The notes under the pieces were generated by a model. The model did not search any database. It was not told the origin of the DNA and saw nothing but the letters and a program-made list of their open reading frames with translations. Below, in pieces: positions 6,878 to 61,916 of a stretch of 64,000 bases of DNA. The number at the start of each line of letters is the position of its first letter. Within the stretch, counting starts at the first letter, position 1. Source of the DNA: Alteromonas stellipolaris (GTDB taxonomy: Bacteria; Pseudomonadota; Gammaproteobacteria; Enterobacterales; Alteromonadaceae); assembly GCF_001562115.1 (NCBI RefSeq), contig NZ_CP013926.1, forward strand, positions 1,612,001-1,676,000, written 5' to 3'. The position numbers and the translations under genes were made by a program.

Positions 6878-7165
6878 AGATTTAATGGGCGTTTTTGTAT
6901 AATAATTTAGCGATTTTGTACTTCTTTTCATAAACCGAATTTTAAGGGAATAGCACCAAATAACAAGTAAAAAGAACATGATGAGTCTAAAACATAGGGC
7001 GGTTGGCAAAATAGCGTATTGTTGAAAATACCCAAGTTGGCAAACGGGATTACGCTCGTTTATTAAAACACGCTATATTTAGGGTGAGTTGTGATTACTC
7101 TTTAGAGGATACGCAACGCGTAATTCGGTTAATTAACACTTAATGTAAGATTGAGGTTTTGTAGT

Positions 7166-7813
7166 ATGACCACACTCGTTCTAGCTTCATCATCGAAGTA
7201 CCGCCAGCAATTATTGTCGAATATTGGCATTCAAGCTGAAATAAGCAAACCAGATATAGATGAGACTCCCCTACCCGATGAAACACCCCTTGCGTTGTGC
7301 AAACGTTTAGCGTTCGAAAAAGCAAAAAAAATTGCCCAACAACAGCCGGGGAGAATTGTAATTGGAAGTGATCAAGTTGCTTCTGTAGAAGGACCTGATG
7401 GCAAGGTCATATTAGGCAAGCCCGGCACAGTTGAAAATGCTGTAGCGCAATTAAAAATGTGCCAGGGAAAATCGGTGTATTTCTACACTGCGATAAGTCT
7501 GTGTAAAGCAGAAGACGATGAAGACCTACCCGATATTCTTACCAGTAATTTAGACACCATTACCCGAGCCGAAGAAACCTGTGTGTATTTTCGTAGCCAT
7601 AAAGAAGCGCAGCTACGCGCTTATGTTGAAGCCGAAATGCCACTTGATTGCGCGGGGAGCTTCAAATGTGAAGGCATGGGTGCCTTATTGTTCGAACGAA
7701 TTACCAGCCGCGATCCTAATACTTTAATAGGGCTTCCCGTGATGCTGCTGCATAATATGTTAGACAAACATTTTAATATCGATTTGCTAGACCTAGCTAC
7801 TGCCAAAGCCTAG
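7166..7813 (+). CDS. yceF: 7-methyl-GTP pyrophosphatase, Maf-like YceF
   Basis: Maf-superfamily nucleotide pyrophosphatase of the YceF subgroup, which prefers 7-methyl-GTP and probably removes modified nucleotides. It starts MTTLVLASSSKYRQQLL; the phosphate loop SSSKYR, GSDQV and the C-terminal CAGSFKCEG and RDPNTLIGLP segments match E. coli YceF. The ATG at 7166 is preceded by GAGG at a 9-base distance; an in-frame TTG at 7151 is less likely. Its length is 215 residues. It is divergent from yceD, the same arrangement as in E. coli. Confidence 0.92.
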   Translation: MTTLVLASSSKYRQQLLSNIGIQAEISKPDIDETPLPDETPLALCKRLAFEKAKKIAQQQPGRIVIGSDQVASVEGPDGKVILGKPGTVENAVAQLKMCQGKSVYFYTAISLCKAEDDEDLPDILTSNLDTITRAEETCVYFRSHKEAQLRAYVEAEMPLDCAGSFKCEGMGALLFERITSRDPNTLIGLPVMLLHNMLDKHFNIDLLDLATAKA

Positions 7814-39447: not shown

Positions 39448-39524
39448 TGGCGGAGCGGACGGGACTCGAACCCGCGACCCCCGGCGTGACAGGCCGGTAT
39501 TCTAACCAACTGAACTACCGCTCC
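39448..39524 (-). tRNA. tRNA-Asp (GTC), copy 4 in transcription order
   Basis: A 77-base tRNA on the minus strand, GGAGCGGTAGTTCAGTTGG... with anticodon loop CTGTCAC (GTC, Asp), T-loop GGTTCGAGTCC and encoded CCA. The acceptor stem GGAGCGG/CCGCTCC pairs fully. Last of four identical tandem copies. Confidence 0.97.
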
Positions 39525-39555
39525 GCATAATGGGAAAGTGTGCTATTTCGATAAG

Positions 39556-39632
39556 TGGCGGAGCGGACGGGACTCGAACCCGCGACCCCCGGCGTGACAG
39601 GCCGGTATTCTAACCAACTGAACTACCGCTCC
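39556..39632 (-). tRNA. tRNA-Asp (GTC), copy 3
   Basis: Same 77-base sequence as the neighbouring copies, CCA encoded, 31 bases from copy 4. Confidence 0.97.
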
Positions 39633-39665
39633 ACATCATCGAAGAGACACTTTGTTATAACTAAA

Positions 39666-39742
39666 TGGCGGAGCGGACGGGACTCGAACCCGCGACCCCC
39701 GGCGTGACAGGCCGGTATTCTAACCAACTGAACTACCGCTCC
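39666..39742 (-). tRNA. tRNA-Asp (GTC), copy 2
   Basis: Same 77-base sequence, CCA encoded, 33 bases from copy 3. Spacers between the copies differ in sequence although the tRNAs do not. Confidence 0.97.
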
Positions 39743-39769
39743 GTGGCCTTTTAGTTATATCATTGAAAG

Positions 39770-39846
39770 TGGCGGAGCGGACGGGACTCGAACCCGCGAC
39801 CCCCGGCGTGACAGGCCGGTATTCTAACCAACTGAACTACCGCTCC
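39770..39846 (-). tRNA. tRNA-Asp (GTC), copy 1, promoter-proximal
   Basis: Same 77-base sequence, CCA encoded, first copy after the promoter at 39903-39940 and 27 bases from copy 2. Confidence 0.97.
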
Positions 39847-52932: not shown

Positions 52933-54051
52933 TTAACGAGCACGCAGCTCACTTGGGGTTAAGCCGGTTAACCGTTTTATTGCACGGCGAAAGTTAGGCA
53001 GGTCGGAAAAGGCCATTTGAGAGGCGCTTTGTTCGTTGTTTAGTTTTCTAAGCGCCAGTAATACGATAGCTTGTTGCCGCCGAGCTTCTTCGCTTAAGCC
53101 CCGGTATGTGTAATTGTGATCGGTCAGCTTTCGTTTTAACGTTGCGGTACTGCACCCTAAGCTTTCAGCTAAATCTGCCAACCCTTTTTGCGGTTCACGT
53201 AAGGTCTTACTTCTTACATAGTCGAGTAAGCTCAAGTTTGATGTGGCTTCGCGTGAAGTTTGGAGTAAGGTTTGGGGTTGCTGATACGCCAAACCTCTCT
53301 CTGTCTCGCCTAGAGCTTCGCCAAAAGCATCGCCTGTTTTATCATCGGCAAAAGGGAAAGGAATAGTCATACATGATTTGGGTAGGGTTATAGACATCAA
53401 CGGTGCATTGAAAGTAACCCGAAGCCCTAGGTAAGTTTCGAAATCTTGAACATTGCGTGGTCTATCAGAATCTATTGTAAAGCCTAAAGGTAAACGGGTG
53501 CCTGTCCACTGTTTAAGTAAGGCGACCAGCATGGACAAATACAACTGGGCAATAAACGGCCAAAGCTTGTGGCTGCCTCTTTTTTCACACCCCATGGTGT
53601 CTTGTAACACCCAAATGTATTTGTCTTGTAGCACAAAGCGCTTAAAAGATACCAAAGGAACACTCTCCCACCGTATTGCCGAAAGTACTTCAATCGCCTG
53701 CTCAAGATTTTGGCTATCTTTAATGTTGGCTATGTCTTCACGTAGCCATACACCACCTAAGCTTTTACCTATCAAAAAGCTAACATCGTTACCTTGGCAT
53801 TGACTTCTTACGTTAGAAAGTAAGGCAATACATTGCTTGGCGCTAATGCGGGTATCCATCGTGAGGCTATCGTCAAAAATGCCCGTACCACGAAGTATTT
53901 TGTCTTTACTTGCTCCGCGGGGAATGGCAACGTCCAGCACCGCATGGACAAGGTGATACGCGGGTATCACCTTGTCCAACTTAGTCACTGGTGCAGGGGA
54001 AAGTTCTGGCCCTTGTGTTAGCCCTTGTGTAGCCATTGAGCAAGCTATCAC
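52933..54051 (-). CDS. AraC-family regulator (arabinose-binding-like N-terminus)
   Basis: A 372-residue regulator. The N-terminal about 200 residues resemble the Arabinose_bd domain of OruR/ArgR-type AraC proteins (HAVLDVAIPRGASKDKILRGTGI, SFLIGKSLGG). The C-terminal about 100 residues form the double helix-turn-helix with LADLAESLGCSTATLKRKLTDHNYTYRGL and the second FSDLPNFRRAIKRLTGLTPSELR. It starts at a GTG sharing a base with the stop of the degenerate-GGDEF gene (TAGTG), so the pair is translationally coupled; an in-frame ATG lies five codons later. It is a candidate regulator of the divergent receptor-phosphatase-phytase genes. Confidence 0.85.
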   Translation of the reverse strand: MIACSMATQGLTQGPELSPAPVTKLDKVIPAYHLVHAVLDVAIPRGASKDKILRGTGIFDDSLTMDTRISAKQCIALLSNVRSQCQGNDVSFLIGKSLGGVWLREDIANIKDSQNLEQAIEVLSAIRWESVPLVSFKRFVLQDKYIWVLQDTMGCEKRGSHKLWPFIAQLYLSMLVALLKQWTGTRLPLGFTIDSDRPRNVQDFETYLGLRVTFNAPLMSITLPKSCMTIPFPFADDKTGDAFGEALGETERGLAYQQPQTLLQTSREATSNLSLLDYVRSKTLREPQKGLADLAESLGCSTATLKRKLTDHNYTYRGLSEEARRQQAIVLLALRKLNNEQSASQMAFSDLPNFRRAIKRLTGLTPSELRAR

Positions 54052-55094
54052 TATGCCGCGTTCCTGCTACCGGGTTTAGAACCGAGCTTGGTTCCGGGTT
54101 TAGAACCGGGCTTCGAACCGGGCTTCGAACCGGGCTTAGTTCCGAGATTACTGCCCTTGTAGCTCCCTTCATCGCCAACCTTATCGCCTTCGTTCCTGCC
54201 GGCGTCTTCAAGTTGAAGTAGCAAATGCTGCAAGGTATCGGTGAGCGAATCTCCCTGACTAAGCGGCGCAACCACTGCTCGCGCACTAGTATAAATGGCG
54301 GCAGTGTCTTCTTTATAGCGAAATGCCACATGACTAATACTTGCTCTAACTTCCTTTACAATATCTTGTGCTTCGGCTTCATTCACATTGGGCAGTAACA
54401 ACGCGAATCTATCGCCGGCATATCGACAAGCTAAATCTTGTTGTCTGAGGTTCATTACCACCAGCTGCGCAACTTCGTGCAAATATCGGTCGCCTTCGGC
54501 CTGCCCATAGCACTGATTAAAATAAGAAAATTCATTAATATCGATGATGGCCACATAACCGTTATGTCCAGATGCTTGCAAGGCGGTAACCCGTGATTGC
54601 CAGTAATCGCCTCGATACAATTGAGTGATAGGATCGATTTCTTGGTGGTCTCGGTAGTCCCACTCTCGGCGGCGAAGCTGCAAATTGATTGCACGCTGTT
54701 CTAAATGCCACAAGTAAAGCGCCGCTGTCATAATGATCATGCCAATAGCTGCGGGTATCGACTCAATCATGCTAAGCCACACGGCAGAGTCGGGGTAACG
54801 CAAAAACTCATCAAGCAAGTCAAGTGTCATTGAAAATAAGAAAAACACTAAGCCCATAATTAACAAGCTGGTGACCTTACCCGGCGGCCGACTGGCCAAC
54901 ACCGCGACAATCCACCCTAGCGTTAGCAGTACTACACTGCCCTCACCCACAATATCTAGCCCAGATATAATGGCGAGCGGCTTGGGGTTGCCAAAGGTCA
55001 GGCTCAATGAGCTTGCCAGTGCACAAGTAGCAAAAGTAAAGAACAGCCAGCCTTTATGGTGACCAAACTGCGTGGCATTTCGTAACGTAAACAT
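54051..55094 (-). CDS. Membrane protein with a degenerate GGDEF domain and a C-terminal GSKP repeat
   Basis: A 347-residue protein. About four transmembrane helices fill residues 15-135. A GGDEF-type domain follows (ITQLYRGDYWQSRV...VAIIDINEFSYFNQCYGQAEGD). The active-site signature reads YAGDRFALLLP where catalytic cyclases have GG(D/E)EF, so diguanylate cyclase activity is probably lost. The last about 45 residues are low-complexity, with repeated GSKP units (GTKPGSKPGSKPGSKPGTKL). Its stop overlaps the AraC-type start. Likely a signalling or scaffold partner of that regulator. Confidence 0.82.
   Translation of the reverse strand: MFTLRNATQFGHHKGWLFFTFATCALASSLSLTFGNPKPLAIISGLDIVGEGSVVLLTLGWIVAVLASRPPGKVTSLLIMGLVFFLFSMTLDLLDEFLRYPDSAVWLSMIESIPAAIGMIIMTAALYLWHLEQRAINLQLRRREWDYRDHQEIDPITQLYRGDYWQSRVTALQASGHNGYVAIIDINEFSYFNQCYGQAEGDRYLHEVAQLVVMNLRQQDLACRYAGDRFALLLPNVNEAEAQDIVKEVRASISHVAFRYKEDTAAIYTSARAVVAPLSQGDSLTDTLQHLLLQLEDAGRNEGDKVGDEGSYKGSNLGTKPGSKPGSKPGSKPGTKLGSKPGSRNAA
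54066..54143 (-). repeat. 12-base tandem repeat encoding GSKP/GTKP
   Basis: Within the 3' end of the degenerate-GGDEF gene a 12-base unit (CCCGGTTCGAAG and variants) recurs about six times in tandem. Copies differ by one to three bases. It is a probable site of slipped-strand length change, adding or removing four-residue units. Confidence 0.75.
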
Positions 55095-55379: not shown

Positions 55380-55397
55380 TCGTCATGTAACTGTCAT
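55380..55397 (+). promoter_or_regulatory. Pho box (PhoB binding site)
   Basis: TCGTCATGTAACTGTCAT matches the consensus CTGTCATAAAACTGTCAT at 14 of 18 positions, with both heptamer cores GTCAT intact. It lies 102 bases before the receptor ATG. A clear -10 box could not be placed. Confidence 0.7.
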
Positions 55398-55499
55398 ATC
55401 CAATTTTTACCTTACATTCTTGCCGTACGTTTTGCCGTATTTTTTACCATTTTTGGGCATCACACATTGTTCACTGCACACACTACTCATGGATTAAGA

Positions 55500-58205
55500 A
55501 TGAAAATTAAAACCCGTTATTCTACGTTACGCATTGCCTGCATTGCTGCGCTTGGCCTTTCACTGTCTCATCAAGCTTTAGCCGCTAATGGCGCCATTAC
55601 GGGTACGCTCAACGACGCCGCTGAAGCGCGCGTATACGTAGGCGCTAAAGTTCGACTGGTAGAGCTGAACCTAATCACTGAATCTCGTCGCGACGGTAGC
55701 TTTCGCTTCTCGGGTGTACCAGCGGGCACCTATACCTTAGAGGTTTCTTATTTAGGTGAAGAAACGGTAACGCAGAAAGTCACAGTAAAGGATGATGCCA
55801 CCGTACGCACTGCAATTGAGGTGGGTGAAGGTGACGAACTTGAAGAATTACTAGTATTAGGGCAACGCAGTAGCCAAGCCAGCGCCATAAACCAACAGCG
55901 GGTATCTAATCGCATATCTAATGTGGTCTCTGCCGATGCCATAGGCCAATTTCCCGATCAAAACGCCGCTGAGTCATTGCAACGTTTACCAGGCTTGTCG
56001 ATAGAGCGAGACCAAGGCGAAGGCCGATTTGTGGGTATTCGCGGTATCGATCCAAACTTAAACAACGTGACGATTAACGGCCTTAACATTCCTTCGCCTG
56101 AATCTGGTGTACGCTCGGTGGCTTTAGATGTTATACCTTCCGAACTAATTCAAACTCTTGAAGTATCGAAGTCGGTCACCCCTGACATGGACGGTGATGC
56201 TATTGGTGGCTCTGTTGAAGTAACCAGTGTTAGCGCCTTCGACAAACAACAAGACACAGCCAGTATTACCGTACAAGGTAGCCAAAACGATTTGCGTGAT
56301 GAAGTTAGCCCTAAGGTTTCAGGTACCATTACACAAAAGCTATCACCAGATTGGGGCGTAGCAGCAGCCTTGTCTTACTTTGACCGAGACTTTGGTTCAG
56401 ATAACGTAGAAAGCAACGGCGATGATGAAGTAGAACAACGCCAATACACCATTACCCGTGAACGTTTAGGGGCAGCGGTTAACCTTGATTACCGCCCAGA
56501 TTTTAATAACCAGTATTACCTTCGCACGCTTTACAGTGAATTTTCAGACGAAGAATACCGGTTAAGCAACACCTTCACGCTAGACGGTGAAGACTCAGAA
56601 ATTGAGCGTGGCAGTAAAGACAGAAAAGAAACCCAAAGTATTTTTACCGTTGCCCTTGGCGGTGAACATCAATTACAAACTTGGAAAGCCGACTGGCAAT
56701 TAGGTTTTGCCAAATCTGACGAAGATGAACCAGACGCGCTCTACTATAACTTTGTGACAGAAAACGACAGTATTGATGCCAACTTAAACACTATTCGCCC
56801 TGCCATAACACAAGATGCTGATGCAGTAGATTTATCAACCTATGAGCTTGATGAAATTGCATTTGAAGACAATTACACCAAAGACACTGAAACCAGCTTT
56901 AAACTCGATTTCGCTCGCCCAGTCAACTTTGGCAGTTATATAGGTGAGTTAAAATTAGGGACTAAGTACCGTAGCCGTGAAAAAGACAGAGACAGCAGCA
57001 TCTTCATTTACGATGGAGATTTCGACAACATAGACCCGTCAGATTTTGGTGATAGCTCACCAGACTATTCATTGGGTGATTTTGGCCCAGGGTTGTCTCG
57101 TTCAACTATGCGTGATTATTTTGACACCAACCGCACGGCACTAGAATTGGCTGAACTTGATTCAGAAATTGAATCTAACGGTGCCACCTACGTTAACGAA
57201 GAAGACATCTTTGCCGCTTATATTATGGGTAGTGTTGATATTGATAAGCTTCATATTGTGGCTGGTGTACGCTACGAGCGCACTGATTTCAGTACCTCAG
57301 GTATGCGTGTTGAGCTTATTGAAAATGAAGAAACCGATGTGGAAGATGTGGTAAACACGGTTTGGGAAGCTGAGCGTGATTACGATCATTGGTTACCTAG
57401 CATCAATGCGCGCTACGCTTTTTCAGATAAGCTTCAACTTCGCGCCGCTTATACCCAAACTATTTCACGGCCTAAATTTGAAGATGTAGCAGCGTTTCAA
57501 ATTCTCGAAAGCAAAACCGAAGAAGATGACGGCGTTTTTGTTACCGAGCGTGAAGCAGAAGTGGGCAACCCAGAGCTTCAACCTTACGAAGCACAAAACC
57601 TTGATGTGTCTTTAGAGTATTACCCTGGTGATATTGGCGTACTGTCAGCCGGTTATTTCTACAAAGATATTGATAACTTTGTAGTGTATGCCGATGTAGC
57701 AGGCACAGAAGGTTGGGAAGACTACGATGAAGCTATTCAAGCAATTAACGGTGAGAGCGCCAGCTTACACGGGCTAGAATTGTCGTGGGTTAAAGCATTC
57801 AATAACGGCTTTTTAGTGGCAGCAAACGCAACCTTCACAGATTCAGACGCTACCACCATTTTAGATGGTGAAAAGTTTGAAACCCAATTGCCAAATCAGT
57901 CTGACACCATTGGAAACCTAACCTTTGGTTACGAAGCCAATGACTTTAGTCTGCGTTTAGCCATGACGTATAAAAGTGAAAACTTTGAAGAGATTGACGG
58001 TGACATGCTGCGCTTTGAAGATGAACATGCCCAGTTAGACTTTACTGCTAAGTATTTCATTAACGATGATATGCAGGTGTATTTCAACGCTATCAATATT
58101 AATAACGAACCATTTTATAATTACTTCGACTCGCGCACTAACAACGCACAATTTGAAGAATATGGCCGCACCTTTGAACTAGGTTTTACATGGCAAATGC
58201 GCTAA
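55500..58205 (+). CDS. TonB-dependent outer-membrane receptor
   Basis: A 901-residue outer-membrane transporter. A signal peptide (to about ALAAN) is followed by a carboxypeptidase-regulatory-like domain (about 30-110, GAITGTLNDAAEARVYVGAKV...GVPAGTYTLEVSYLG). Then comes the TonB plug with NAAESLQRLPGLSIERDQGEGRFVGIRGIDPNLNNVTING and GSVEVTS, and a 22-stranded barrel ending YGRTFELGFTWQMR. The ATG at 55500 replaces an improbable 44-residue extension. Followed by a phosphatase and a phytase, and preceded by a Pho box, it most likely imports phytate or its products. Confidence 0.92.
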   Translation: MKIKTRYSTLRIACIAALGLSLSHQALAANGAITGTLNDAAEARVYVGAKVRLVELNLITESRRDGSFRFSGVPAGTYTLEVSYLGEETVTQKVTVKDDATVRTAIEVGEGDELEELLVLGQRSSQASAINQQRVSNRISNVVSADAIGQFPDQNAAESLQRLPGLSIERDQGEGRFVGIRGIDPNLNNVTINGLNIPSPESGVRSVALDVIPSELIQTLEVSKSVTPDMDGDAIGGSVEVTSVSAFDKQQDTASITVQGSQNDLRDEVSPKVSGTITQKLSPDWGVAAALSYFDRDFGSDNVESNGDDEVEQRQYTITRERLGAAVNLDYRPDFNNQYYLRTLYSEFSDEEYRLSNTFTLDGEDSEIERGSKDRKETQSIFTVALGGEHQLQTWKADWQLGFAKSDEDEPDALYYNFVTENDSIDANLNTIRPAITQDADAVDLSTYELDEIAFEDNYTKDTETSFKLDFARPVNFGSYIGELKLGTKYRSREKDRDSSIFIYDGDFDNIDPSDFGDSSPDYSLGDFGPGLSRSTMRDYFDTNRTALELAELDSEIESNGATYVNEEDIFAAYIMGSVDIDKLHIVAGVRYERTDFSTSGMRVELIENEETDVEDVVNTVWEAERDYDHWLPSINARYAFSDKLQLRAAYTQTISRPKFEDVAAFQILESKTEEDDGVFVTEREAEVGNPELQPYEAQNLDVSLEYYPGDIGVLSAGYFYKDIDNFVVYADVAGTEGWEDYDEAIQAINGESASLHGLELSWVKAFNNGFLVAANATFTDSDATTILDGEKFETQLPNQSDTIGNLTFGYEANDFSLRLAMTYKSENFEEIDGDMLRFEDEHAQLDFTAKYFINDDMQVYFNAININNEPFYNYFDSRTNNAQFEEYGRTFELGFTWQMR

Positions 58206-58311
58206 TTAGCGCATTGTTTAATCCGTATTGTAAAACGATGTTCACGTTAAACCATAACGGTTGAACAATAACGTTAAACCCTAAAACGTCATACACCAGC
58301 GTTTAAAAAAT

Positions 58312-58337
58312 GGGCGCGCTACAAGCGCGCCCTTATT
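58312..58337 (+). terminator. Hairpin between the receptor and phosphatase genes
   Basis: A 9-bp very GC-rich stem GGGCGCGCT-ACA-AGCGCGCCC followed by TTATT. It would partly terminate, or protect, the receptor mRNA, so the downstream genes may be expressed at a lower level or need their own promoter. Confidence 0.7.
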
Positions 58338-58349
58338 AGAGATAAATTC

Positions 58350-59336
58350 ATGCGCGTACTACTGCTTCTTTTTGCCTTTTTATCACTTACATGCGAAGGG
58401 CAAACCACATCACACGATTACTACCAACAACACCACATTAATAATCTTGAAGTTCAAGATAATGCGTTTAACTTTTTAGTGGTGGGCGACTGGGGCCGCA
58501 ACGGCCATTTTTATCAACGAGACGTAGCCAAATGGATGGACATTGCCAGCTACCAGCTTGATGCTGAATTCATCGCCACCACAGGCGATAATTTTTATGA
58601 TAACGGAGTTGCTTCAGTAGAAGATCCCTATTGGCGAACATCTTATGAAGATATTTACCACCAGCCCCACTTATTCGTTGATTGGCACCCCGTGCTAGGC
58701 AACCATGATTATCGCGGCAATTGGCAAGCACAAATAGACTACAGCAAAGTGAGTCGACGTTGGGAAATGCCAGCGCAGTATTATAGCAAAACCGTAAAGT
58801 TAGAAGATGATACTACTGCGCTTATTCTGTTTATTGATACTAACCCGCTTAACCCAGATTACGCTACCGAGGCGAAATACCACCAAGCATTTGCTCAAGG
58901 CTCAACAAAGCAATTAGCTTGGATAAACACCATGCTTTCAAACAGTAATGCTAAATGGAACATTGTGATTGGTCATCATCCACTGTACTCAAGTGGAAAG
59001 CGTTATGGCACTACCAGTGCTATTAAAAATGTACTAGAGCCAATATTGCACCAGCACGACGTAGACGCCTACATCGCAGGGCACGAACATGATTTGCAGC
59101 ACAACCAGTTACCTGACGATGCTTTAGTACACATTGTATCTGGCGGAGGCTCAGAAGTGCGCCCCGTAGGAAATTATGCCTTCACCCGTTTTGCAAAATC
59201 CACAGGTGGTTTTGTGGCAGTCAGTTTAACCGGTCGCGAGCTTCGTTTTACCTTTATTGACCATAACGGGGAGGTCATCTATCAACATAATGTACAAAAG
59301 CCTAACGCTGTAACAAAAGGAACTGGCAATGAATAA
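58350..59336 (+). CDS. Purple-acid-phosphatase-like metallophosphoesterase
   Basis: A 328-residue secreted calcineurin-type phosphoesterase like tartrate-resistant acid phosphatase. A signal peptide (about 1-17) leads to the metal motifs GDWG (Asp47), GDNFYDNG (Asp80), GNHDY (Asn118, His119), GHHPLYSSG and GHEHDLQH. The spacing matches purple acid phosphatases of the ACP5 type. It should release phosphate from phosphomonoesters in the periplasm. It overlaps the phytase start by eight bases, so they are co-translated. Confidence 0.88.
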   Translation: MRVLLLLFAFLSLTCEGQTTSHDYYQQHHINNLEVQDNAFNFLVVGDWGRNGHFYQRDVAKWMDIASYQLDAEFIATTGDNFYDNGVASVEDPYWRTSYEDIYHQPHLFVDWHPVLGNHDYRGNWQAQIDYSKVSRRWEMPAQYYSKTVKLEDDTTALILFIDTNPLNPDYATEAKYHQAFAQGSTKQLAWINTMLSNSNAKWNIVIGHHPLYSSGKRYGTTSAIKNVLEPILHQHDVDAYIAGHEHDLQHNQLPDDALVHIVSGGGSEVRPVGNYAFTRFAKSTGGFVAVSLTGRELRFTFIDHNGEVIYQHNVQKPNAVTKGTGNE

Positions 59337-61785
59337 AGTGAAGAACAAACTTACTAAAGTTGCCATAAAAACAAGTCAATTAGGCTTTTGCTTGGCGGTT
59401 ATGGCAGGCGCTAATGCAATTGCATCAAGCTCAGCTGACCTCACACTAGCAAATACAGGCGCTGGTATTACTACTGAGTCAGAAACGACATACGAACTAA
59501 ACGGCAGAACAATAAGCGTAACAATTAGTGAAACTAATGGCTTAACAGTATCTGATAGCAAGAATATGCTAGCGTCGCAAAAAGGCCACTTTGTTACAGC
59601 TGGAAGTTACCTTGTTTCTAACGAATCAGTAGGTGAATCAAGCGCCGAGGTGGCAAGTACCACTAGTGCCTATATTCAAACCTTAGTGTTTGAAATTAAC
59701 AGCCAACAAATACGTAGCTACACGATAGGCATTAAAAACGCCCCAAACCACGCCATCAGCATTACCCAAACATCAGCGACTGACGTGAAAGATTCCGAAG
59801 CCTTGTGTAGCGCCAAGATAGACGGCAAGTTACAGTTCATCAATATAGATGCGTTGGGTATGCTCACCCAATATTTGGCAATACCGGATAAAAGCGGTAG
59901 CGCGCTCACGGTACATCCTTTACGTACATTGGCGATTGGCCCTGGTATAAAAAGCTGTGCGCTTGGGGTGAGCTACCACGCGTCTAATTACACAACTTCG
60001 GACTACAACGCTTCTGACTACGGTGTACCTGTTGAAGGAACTTCTCACGCAAGAACAAAACATGTTAAGCAAACTATTTATTTAGCTGACGAATACGCCG
60101 GTGTTTGGGCCATGCCTGCAGATGAAGAAGCTGAGGTCGAGCGCACGCTCATTTTCAACCAGCCTGACACGCCGGTAGAAGGTGTTGCCACCCTTAATGG
60201 GTTCGAGGCACACAAGGAGGTTCCCGCCGGTTCAGGTACAAATCGCCCAATTACAAACAGCTCGGCTGCAAATAGCACACCTACAACAATTCTAGGAACA
60301 CAAGGCACGGTTACCGCTTGGGTAAGCCCAGAACACAGTGGCCTGTGGCTTCACAATACGTGCGCCACGAGCTTCTTTGATTTTGATCAAGACATTGCTC
60401 CAGAAGATATCTCGCTGTTGGTAACAGGCGATACGGTTCACGCCAACATCTACGATGACCACTCAGGCAGCACACTCACCACCAACATCACCCACGCCAT
60501 TGCAACAATAAACAGCTGCCACACAAACCAGGAATCTCTTATCAAGACACCCTCGTCTTTTAACGAAAGGTCTTTTAACGAGACACCCATGTTAAAAGAC
60601 ACAGACCTCACTACAGAGACACCCACCCAAAATGGTGATGTATCCACTAACATCACTAACGAGACACCCATCTTTTCTGCTATAGAACTGCAGCCCATTT
60701 ATGAAACCGATGTAGTAGAAAATTATGGCGATGCAGCAGATGATCCTGCTATTTGGATAAACAAAAACGACCCAGCTAAAAGCGTGGTGATTGGCACTAA
60801 CAAAAAAGGCAGCTTAAATACCTATAATTTACAAGGTGAGTTAGTTGCATCCCACAAGGTAGGGCGAGTAAATAATGTGGGCGTGGCATACGATTGGGCG
60901 CCACAACACGATATCGCCGTGGCGAGTAATCGAAGCAGTAATAGCATGTCGGTCTTTTTTATCGATAAGAAAACGGGCGAGCTAACCTTTAATACCAACA
61001 TCCCTACCCCGCTAAACGATATATATGGGTTGTGCGTATTTTCAGTAAATAATCACACCCAAGTATTAGTGAATAGCACAGATGGCCGATACTTACGCTA
61101 TTTATTGAACTCGCCAACTGATGTAAATAATAACGCCATCGCGAAAACTAACTCCCATACCAACCCTGTGAGCAGTGCTGAAAAAGCAGATCCTTCTCAG
61201 ATTTCTGCCACCTTAATTCACGACTTTGAATTACCGTCCCAACCGGAAGGGTGCGTTGTGGACACTACCGCGCAAATAGCCTACTTGGGAGAAGAAGGTG
61301 CTGGCATATGGGCGTTGGATGTTTCTGAAATAAAAACAATGCCTTCATCAACGCTCGCTAAAGCTGTAAACAAGCATGCTTCAATCAAGTTAGATAACAA
61401 GACACCCATGTTTATTATTCCGATTGAATCACCAGTTACCGCTGATATTGAAGGTTTGTCGTTATTTGATGTAGACGGTGTACGCTATTTAATTGCTTCT
61501 AGCCAAGGCAATAATCAATACGCTGTGTATGAAAGCGAGGCACCCTATAAATTGGTGGGTATGATAAGCATTGGTCCAAATTATGATAAAGGCATTGATG
61601 GCGTGTCGGAAACTGATGGGCTTGAAACCACAAACGCCAATCTGGGCGGACCATTTAAAAATGGGCTATTGGTGGTGCAAGATGGAAGAAATGTTATGCC
61701 TAGCCAAAGGCAGAACTTTAAGTTAGTGACAGGAGATGACTTAGCTGATGCAATTCGCACTCATGTGAGCAATCGTAATCAGTAA
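59329..61785 (+). CDS. Large beta-propeller phytase
   Basis: An 818-residue secreted enzyme hydrolysing phytate (inositol hexakisphosphate). The signal peptide ends near ANAIAS. The C-terminal about 350 residues are a clear beta-propeller phytase: DAADDPAIWI (Asp468), NVGVAYDW, YGLCVF, QPEGCVVD, LGEEGAGIWALD, DIEGLSLF, ASSQGNNQYAVYE and ETDGLETTNANLGG. The N-terminal about 430 residues contain propeller-like remnants (YAGVWAMPADEEAEVERTLIF) and fit the incomplete first domain of dual-domain phytases. A Thr-rich linker with repeated ETP units joins them. Ca2+ dependence is expected from the family. Confidence 0.92.
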   Translation: MNKVKNKLTKVAIKTSQLGFCLAVMAGANAIASSSADLTLANTGAGITTESETTYELNGRTISVTISETNGLTVSDSKNMLASQKGHFVTAGSYLVSNESVGESSAEVASTTSAYIQTLVFEINSQQIRSYTIGIKNAPNHAISITQTSATDVKDSEALCSAKIDGKLQFINIDALGMLTQYLAIPDKSGSALTVHPLRTLAIGPGIKSCALGVSYHASNYTTSDYNASDYGVPVEGTSHARTKHVKQTIYLADEYAGVWAMPADEEAEVERTLIFNQPDTPVEGVATLNGFEAHKEVPAGSGTNRPITNSSAANSTPTTILGTQGTVTAWVSPEHSGLWLHNTCATSFFDFDQDIAPEDISLLVTGDTVHANIYDDHSGSTLTTNITHAIATINSCHTNQESLIKTPSSFNERSFNETPMLKDTDLTTETPTQNGDVSTNITNETPIFSAIELQPIYETDVVENYGDAADDPAIWINKNDPAKSVVIGTNKKGSLNTYNLQGELVASHKVGRVNNVGVAYDWAPQHDIAVASNRSSNSMSVFFIDKKTGELTFNTNIPTPLNDIYGLCVFSVNNHTQVLVNSTDGRYLRYLLNSPTDVNNNAIAKTNSHTNPVSSAEKADPSQISATLIHDFELPSQPEGCVVDTTAQIAYLGEEGAGIWALDVSEIKTMPSSTLAKAVNKHASIKLDNKTPMFIIPIESPVTADIEGLSLFDVDGVRYLIASSQGNNQYAVYESEAPYKLVGMISIGPNYDKGIDGVSETDGLETTNANLGGPFKNGLLVVQDGRNVMPSQRQNFKLVTGDDLADAIRTHVSNRNQ

Positions 61786-61885: not shown

Positions 61886-61916
61886 AAAAGGGTAAGCGGA
61901 TTGGCTTACCCTTTTT
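61886..61916. terminator. Bidirectional terminator behind the phytase gene
   Basis: AAAAGGGTAAGC-GGATTG-GCTTACCCTTTTT lies between the convergent phytase and CBS-domain genes, with A/T-rich flanks on both strands. Confidence 0.88.

Follow-up and report, generated by a model that had tools for sequence, protein, structure and literature searches.

As far as the consulted sections of the reports cited here describe them, phytase genes beside genes for TonB-dependent receptors (TBDRs) have been seen before. In Flavobacterium johnsoniae, the phytase Fjoh_1367 (PF02333) lies next to the TonB-dependent transporter Fjoh_1368, both are induced by depletion of inorganic phosphate (Pi), and transport of organic phosphorus was proposed for the pair (PMC8115612). 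In Citromicrobium bathyomarinum, a TonB-dependent transporter adjoins a phytase, phytic acid being its inferred substrate (PMC3400609), and the PhoB regulon of Caulobacter crescentus holds various TBDRs, a phytase and phosphatases (PMC11208175). On the enzymatic side, the product left is Ins(2,4,6)P3 for beta-propeller phytases (BPPs) and Ins(2)P for acid phytases, with further phosphatases often finishing the degradation; a marine purple acid phosphatase (PAP) of the XP_004504591 clade hydrolyses phytate itself, with a Km of 0.22 mM and a kcat of 956 per s (PMC12406696). Here, we describe a locus of Alteromonas stellipolaris (genome size 4.9 Mb) in which the genes for a TBDR, a PAP and a BPP follow one another. 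It lies in a stretch of 64,000 nt (contig NZ_CP013926.1, positions 1,612,001 to 1,676,000 of the forward strand; hereafter the window) and probably constitutes a PhoB-activated operon for scavenging inositol phosphates. A first-pass annotation of the window had already pointed to known cases of phytase genes next to TonB receptors, in agreement with two of the above reports (PMC8115612, PMC3400609).

In the list of open reading frames (ORFs), the three genes run in the same direction (55500-61785, plus strand), with a spacer of 144 nt between the TBDR and PAP genes and an overlap of 8 nt between the PAP and BPP reading frames. Family profiles and ORFs together bear out the earlier assignment of a receptor, a purple-acid-phosphatase-like enzyme and a beta-propeller phytase in one direction. 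The receptor scored 561.9 bits with TIGR01782 (curated cut-off 310), which places it in that family, and carries a carboxypeptidase-regulatory-like N-domain (PF13715), a plug (PF07715) and a barrel (PF00593). The scores of PAP with PF00149 and of BPP with PF02333 were 66.7 bits (cut-off 21.5) and 179.7 bits (cut-off 21), respectively.

A near-consensus Pho box before the receptor had also been claimed, and this holds: the site matches CTGTCAT-N4-CTGTCAT, which we take to be the consensus, at 12 of 14 positions and is conserved. Judged within the window alone, it would prove little. With up to three mismatches allowed, the window contains five Pho-box-like sites against 4.1 expected by shuffling, which is chance level, and although the site at 55380-55397 is the only one with two mismatches, this alone does not exceed chance either; window statistics were thus rejected as proof. 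The claim instead rests on conservation across orthologous promoters. Among 59 distinct orthologous receptor promoters, 44 contained a box scoring at least 11/14, a threshold picked post hoc with the scores already known and applied to related genomes that are not independent. This set comprises receptors of at least 1200 bits (thus not, for example, L114) with 160 nt of upstream sequence, outside the Bacteroidota-type loci, whose promoters score 7-9/14. A TANNNT hexamer starts exactly 10 nt past the box in 39 of the 44 promoters (background 5.9% for three offsets together); of the remaining five, two contain an additional, third half site and another two a repeat resembling a half site. In a first locus set, 20 of 29 promoters reached this score within 90 nt upstream, as compared with 0.29% of 4527 control windows of 90 nt; in a second, overlapping set it was 35 of 46, and upstream windows of other mechanically called ORFs from the same loci reached it in 10 of 303 cases. 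These data support a promoter architecture in which the Pho box would take the place of the -35 element, 10 nt from the -10 element. The receptor start was set at the ATG common to close homologues; a longer TTG start (55368) would swallow the Pho box.

The genes for PhoB (scoring over its family cut-off), PhoR and PstS stand side by side in the host genome. Elsewhere in that genome, among the matches to GTCAYN5YGTCAY, a triple Pho half site lies 54-65 nt ahead of a Na/Pi cotransporter gene (PF02690; contig C1 of G000, about 4059000; L094/L095), and a box of two half sites lies 66 nt ahead of a polyphosphate kinase gene (same contig, about 987230; L082). A strict site ahead of another TBDR gene, whose locus holds a tryptophan halogenase (L087), was taken as chance.

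The linkage of the three genes was then followed through 60 relatives. BPP was found in 28 of them and the PAP of this locus in 18 (plus one weak match, in G057), while the receptor was present at an E-value of 1e-60 or better in 29, namely the 28 BPP genomes and one more (G022), which has receptor and PAP and in which no phytase was found. Up to 15 candidates per genome were scored for the receptor, and three genomes gave one extra weak match each. The 29 receptor genomes comprise 17 with the arrangement receptor-PAP-BPP, 11 with receptor-BPP and one with receptor-PAP (contig ends truncate two of the trios, those of G005 and G023). The receptor is thus the constant partner and either enzyme can be missing. 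Outside this group, a TBDR adjoins BPP in 17 of 20 other Pseudomonadota loci, several of these TBDRs being divergent.

In a tree of 46 receptors, a branch with 98/98 support separated the phytase- or PAP-linked receptors from 15 TIGR01782 paralogues of the host genome. The linked side comprised 27 phytase-linked receptors from Pseudomonadota and four from Bacteroidota-type loci, of which two stand beside BPP and PAP and two beside PAP only (one of them a metagenome-assembled genome, MAG). The tree took in 13 of the 17 TBDRs of the other Pseudomonadota phytase loci (those above 300 bits) and 13 further phytase-linked receptors chosen from more. These results indicate that a receptor lineage probably goes with phytases across classes. 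Its exclusiveness is not proven, because the comparison group consists of host paralogues only, several on long branches, and four divergent phytase-neighbouring TBDRs (92-119 bits) were left out. The receptor frame looks split in two loci (L114 and L145), which may reflect a sequencing error or a broken gene.

PAP belongs to the calcineurin-fold phosphatases, and its closest match of solved structure is mammalian TRAP5/uteroferrin (1ute, E-value 1.6e-44), which marks it as a low-molecular-weight TRAP5-type enzyme, and five motif blocks are present (DWG, GDNFY, GNHD, VIGHH and GHEH). Aligned to 1ute, residues D47, D80, Y83, N118, H209, H245 and H247 are invariant in 17 PAP orthologues (17 of the 18 loci, the contig-end fragments of G005 being omitted); we take these seven to be the metal ligands of the family. 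PAP is a putative di-metal enzyme with predicted phosphatase activity. For BPP, the AlphaFold2 model (mean predicted local distance difference test score, pLDDT, 76) shows the phytase propeller fold in the catalytic domain. Residues D471, D472, K492, R535, Y566, E640, E655, D706, E708 and Q726 of this domain are invariant in 27 orthologues (27 of the 28 BPPs, the cut copy of G023 being omitted) and presumably correspond to the calcium and phosphate ligands of 1POO; the exception is a Lys, which we take to be K179 of 1POO and which aligns to Thr584. BPP is predicted to be a Ca-dependent phytate hydrolase. Its N-terminal domain is related to the catalytic one (hhalign probability 97.5%, E-value 5.9e-12, in local mode; 98.4%, E-value 5e-14, in global mode), but R535, Y566 and E640 pair there with Ser, Glu and Lys, which makes this domain degenerate. 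Read by eye, the N-termini of PAP and BPP both resemble signal peptides.

Features of the receptor-PAP-BPP locus and its surroundings (window positions)
Feature	Position	Strand	Remarks
Pho box TCGTCAT-GTAA-CTGTCAT	55380-55397	+	two half sites 11 bp apart; 12/14 to the assumed consensus
-10-like hexamer TACCTT	55408-55413	+	starts 10 nt past the Pho box
TBDR gene	55500-58205	+	901 aa, TIGR01782
GC-rich hairpin, 9 bp	58312-58332	+	in the TBDR-PAP spacer, ahead of PAP; T run absent from this strand
PAP gene	58350-59336	+	328 aa, PF00149, TRAP5 type
BPP gene	59329-61785	+	818 aa, PF02333, dual-domain
BPP N-terminal degenerate phytase-like domain	59479-60543	+	residues ~51-405
BPP C-terminal catalytic propeller	60679-61782	+	residues ~451-818
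Terminator-like hairpin 3' of the BPP gene	61886-61915	+	12-bp stem, short T-rich tail

The hairpin in the spacer before PAP might, at a guess, make expression of the operon genes uneven. Terminator-like hairpins number eight across the whole window, which is not above the shuffle mean of 6.9. Upstream of the operon, 54051-55094 encodes a divergent GGDEF protein whose C-terminal tail is of low complexity, with repeated GSKP units, and for which no tie to the operon was seen; a tandem array of four tRNA-Asp(gtc) genes occupies 39448-39846 on the minus strand.

To survey the trio beyond the genus, GTDB genomes were scanned with the PAP alignment, which gave 66 loci, all retaining either of the exact peptides NWQAQID or GDWGRNGH (records near the window genome may be missing). 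The closest named PAP relatives come from Alteromonas. Receptor, PAP and BPP occur together in 50 of them. In 43 trios, mostly from named Alteromonadaceae genera and Thalassotalea, the order is receptor-PAP-BPP; the other seven belong to Bacteroidota (Mesonia, Mangrovimonas and Salegentibacter) and have the order receptor-BPP-PAP. Two of these Bacteroidota trios carry a gene for a TPR protein with a LuxR-type helix-turn-helix ahead of the receptor (L140, 1310-2905; L142, 1283-2905, where the helix-turn-helix falls just under the Pfam cut-off), which may be a local regulator. Three loci contain receptor and PAP only (L144, L146 and L152, the last from Salinimonas profundi and the others from MAGs), which suggests that the receptor can make do with PAP as its only enzyme. 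Alteromonas sp. MMG017 (L162, about 7001-7216) has an internally deleted PAP, of which residues 1-61 and 310-328 are left between the receptor and phytase genes. Ten loci (L150, L151 and L153-L160) hold a distant PAP relative in whose fetched flanks neither a phytase nor a receptor of this lineage was found; their hosts are Acidocella, Acetobacteraceae, Gluconacetobacter and proteobacterial or bacterial MAGs, and a TBDR of another type adjoins the PAP of L160. Two further loci are cut by contig ends (L126 and L130).

In a quick-search tree of BPPs (10 Alteromonadales loci, six of the seven Bacteroidota trios, 20 Pseudomonadota and 13 of 120 listed matches), all six Bacteroidota trio BPPs nested among phytases of Flavobacteriaceae, a group that as a whole had an SH-aLRT of 100 and was set apart by a branch of 2.86, and the Alteromonadales BPPs fell among those of Pseudomonadota. 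In the PAP tree (31 rows, also a quick search), the branches between the two groups were shorter (0.63 and 0.57), although within the groups, too, PAP evolves at a slower rate than BPP. With up to eight candidates scored per genome, a sample of 249 Flavobacteriaceae genomes gave a strong PAP match only in the Mesonia used as centre (403.7 bits; next best 57). The simplest reading of these data is that PAP joined native receptor-phytase loci in two phyla, but the trio may instead be ancient, with many later losses in place of two additions of PAP.

Overall, the computational evidence supports the view that receptor, PAP and BPP are functionally linked, and the functional reading of the first-pass annotation stands to that extent: gene identities, direction, Pho box and this link hold, and the import and hydrolysis steps are kept conditional here. 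The annotation missed the two-domain build of the phytase with its degenerate first domain, the absence of one or the other enzyme beside a retained receptor in relatives, and the occurrence of PAP in Bacteroidota loci with receptor and phytase. Under phosphate starvation, PhoB would bind the Pho box, which stands in for the -35 element, and transcription would run from this Pho-type promoter across receptor, PAP and BPP. The receptor may then carry phytate or lower inositol phosphates, possibly complexed with Ca, over the outer membrane with TonB energy, a role suggested by the company that its lineage keeps with these enzymes. In the envelope, the presumed site of both enzymes, the calcium-dependent BPP would remove phosphates and stop at Ins(2,4,6)P3, as the literature describes for its family, while the di-metal PAP could attack phytate too and/or the remaining esters, so that the two acting together would make a larger share of the six phosphates available for Pi uptake. 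As for the first domain of BPP, it may be a non-catalytic helper, as reported for the phytase of Pseudomonas sp. FB15. A broader interpretation, which we advance tentatively and which stands somewhat below an even chance, is that the lineage is a dedicated inositol-phosphate importer common to Pseudomonadota and Bacteroidota, and that the trio is a private two-enzyme relay that captures phytate and, inside the envelope, leads past Ins(2,4,6)P3. On this view, each phylum would have assembled the relay independently, with the same PAP joining a different native phytase locus.

Several observations weigh against a PhoB-controlled inositol-phosphate operon of this kind. On the regulatory side, 15 of the 59 distinct promoters fall short of 11, the start codon being in doubt for some of these, and the scanned stretches ahead of phoB and pstS contained no site of at least 11/14 (the best site of the phoB locus reaches 10/14, and the lone 11/14 site of the pstS locus sits downstream of pstS). 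Genome-wide, GTCAYN5YGTCAY occurs at 20 sites as against 16 for the reversed pattern, and a stricter half-site pattern at three as against two; such counts, showing no enrichment, were rejected as a regulon marker. As for the enzymes, PAP is absent from 11 of the 28 BPP genomes among the relatives and was found in none of the 20 other Pseudomonadota BPP loci, which makes the relay optional. No BPP gene was found in the genome of Salinimonas profundi and in the two MAGs (the latter may be incomplete); phytate therefore need not be the sole ligand. Regarding the receptor, four of the 17 TBDRs beside other Pseudomonadota BPPs resemble it only weakly (92-119 bits); linkage to a phytase is thus not confined to this lineage. 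The receptor alignment comprised 27 selected receptors. The conserved charged positions special to the lineage include acidic residues as well as basic ones (R176, R314, R342, R354, R370, R375, K495 and R638), and owing to this mixture they were rejected as a marker of anion ligands.

Among other explanations, the one that survives best is that hydrolysis takes place outside or at the surface of the cell and that, in place of intact phytate, the receptor imports inositol phosphates that have already lost some of their phosphates, or complexes of phytate with metals. We regard this as a serious contender, though not the likelier course of events. It fits the lipobox-like N-terminus of four of the 27 orthologous BPPs, the predicted outer-membrane location of the F. 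johnsoniae phytase (PMC8115612) and the mention of extracellular hydrolysis in one report (PMC12406696). On the other hand, a lipobox was found neither in BPP and PAP of the window nor in any of the 17 PAPs, and capture of the intact substrate would explain the tight coupling to the receptor more easily.

Alternatively, the receptor could import other or wider organic phosphates, such as a phosphorylated oligosaccharide or lipid-derived lower inositol phosphates, with BPP and PAP as general helpers. The three genomes with TBDR-PAP loci in which a phytase gene was not found (two of them MAGs) lend this some weight, PAPs have broad substrate ranges, and the long-branched paralogue nearest to the lineage in the tree has as its neighbour a gene that matches pectate lyase below threshold (21.5 bits; cut-off 24). 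We nevertheless consider it unlikely, given that BPPs are rather phytate-specific, the receptor accompanies BPP in 28 of the 29 relative genomes, and it forms one lineage across classes.

Less probable still is that PAP is a chance passenger with an unrelated job, as a phosphodiesterase or otherwise. Many BPP loci do lack PAP, it is internally deleted in Alteromonas sp. MMG017, and the ten Acidocella-like or other loci hold its relative partnerless within the fetched flanks; in contrast, the trio is kept together in 50 of 66 loci, and trio loci have PAP beside a Flavobacteriaceae-type BPP despite a strong PAP match in just one of 249 Flavobacteriaceae genomes. Hydrolysis of phytate by the marine PAP likewise argues against a passenger (PMC12406696). 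That the main job is to acquire iron from ferric phytate, with phosphate release secondary, is very improbable, since the conserved promoter carries a Pho box, even if phytic acid is used as an Fe chelator (PMC3400609). In favour of this reading, iron chelates are the classical cargo of TBDRs.

The inositol-phosphate operon favoured here bears on marine phosphorus cycling, as inositol phosphates were recently proposed to be an overlooked marine phosphorus source and the phosphate released from them a public good (PMC12406696). A receptor-linked unit points to private uptake rather than a public good. Now that the lineage of the receptor, both complementary enzymes and the promoter can be named in a cultivable Alteromonas, phytate import by bacteria is directly testable.

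A unit of PAP, phytase and TonB receptor was not found in the literature, within the best 10-20 matches where more matched and mostly outside subscription papers; the word phytase is not in the text of the A. naphthalenivorans transcriptome paper (PMC4757865). The consulted sections on F. johnsoniae name no PAP with the Fjoh_1367/Fjoh_1368 pair, while in the Alteromonas unit the BPP is dual-domain and the Pho box of the gammaproteobacterial kind (PMC8115612). Those on C. bathyomarinum mention neither promoter nor PAP (PMC3400609), and those on the C. crescentus PhoB regulon describe no single three-gene operon (PMC11208175). The marine PAP reference has GDWG and GNHD like the window PAP, and the family motifs VXXXH and GHXH also fit, the likeness being one of motifs and not of a tree; "TonB" and "operon" are absent from that text (PMC12406696). 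The FB15 phytase likewise has an extra N-terminal domain ahead of its beta-propeller, with a helper effect that was measured, whereas the window BPP is known from sequence and model (PMC9728340). Thus, a phytase beside a TBDR and control by low Pi are known in kind, while it appears to be new, as far as the literature was searched, that receptor, PAP and BPP form a conserved unit and that this unit occurs in two phyla; the same goes for the accompanying receptor lineage and the well-resolved promoter.

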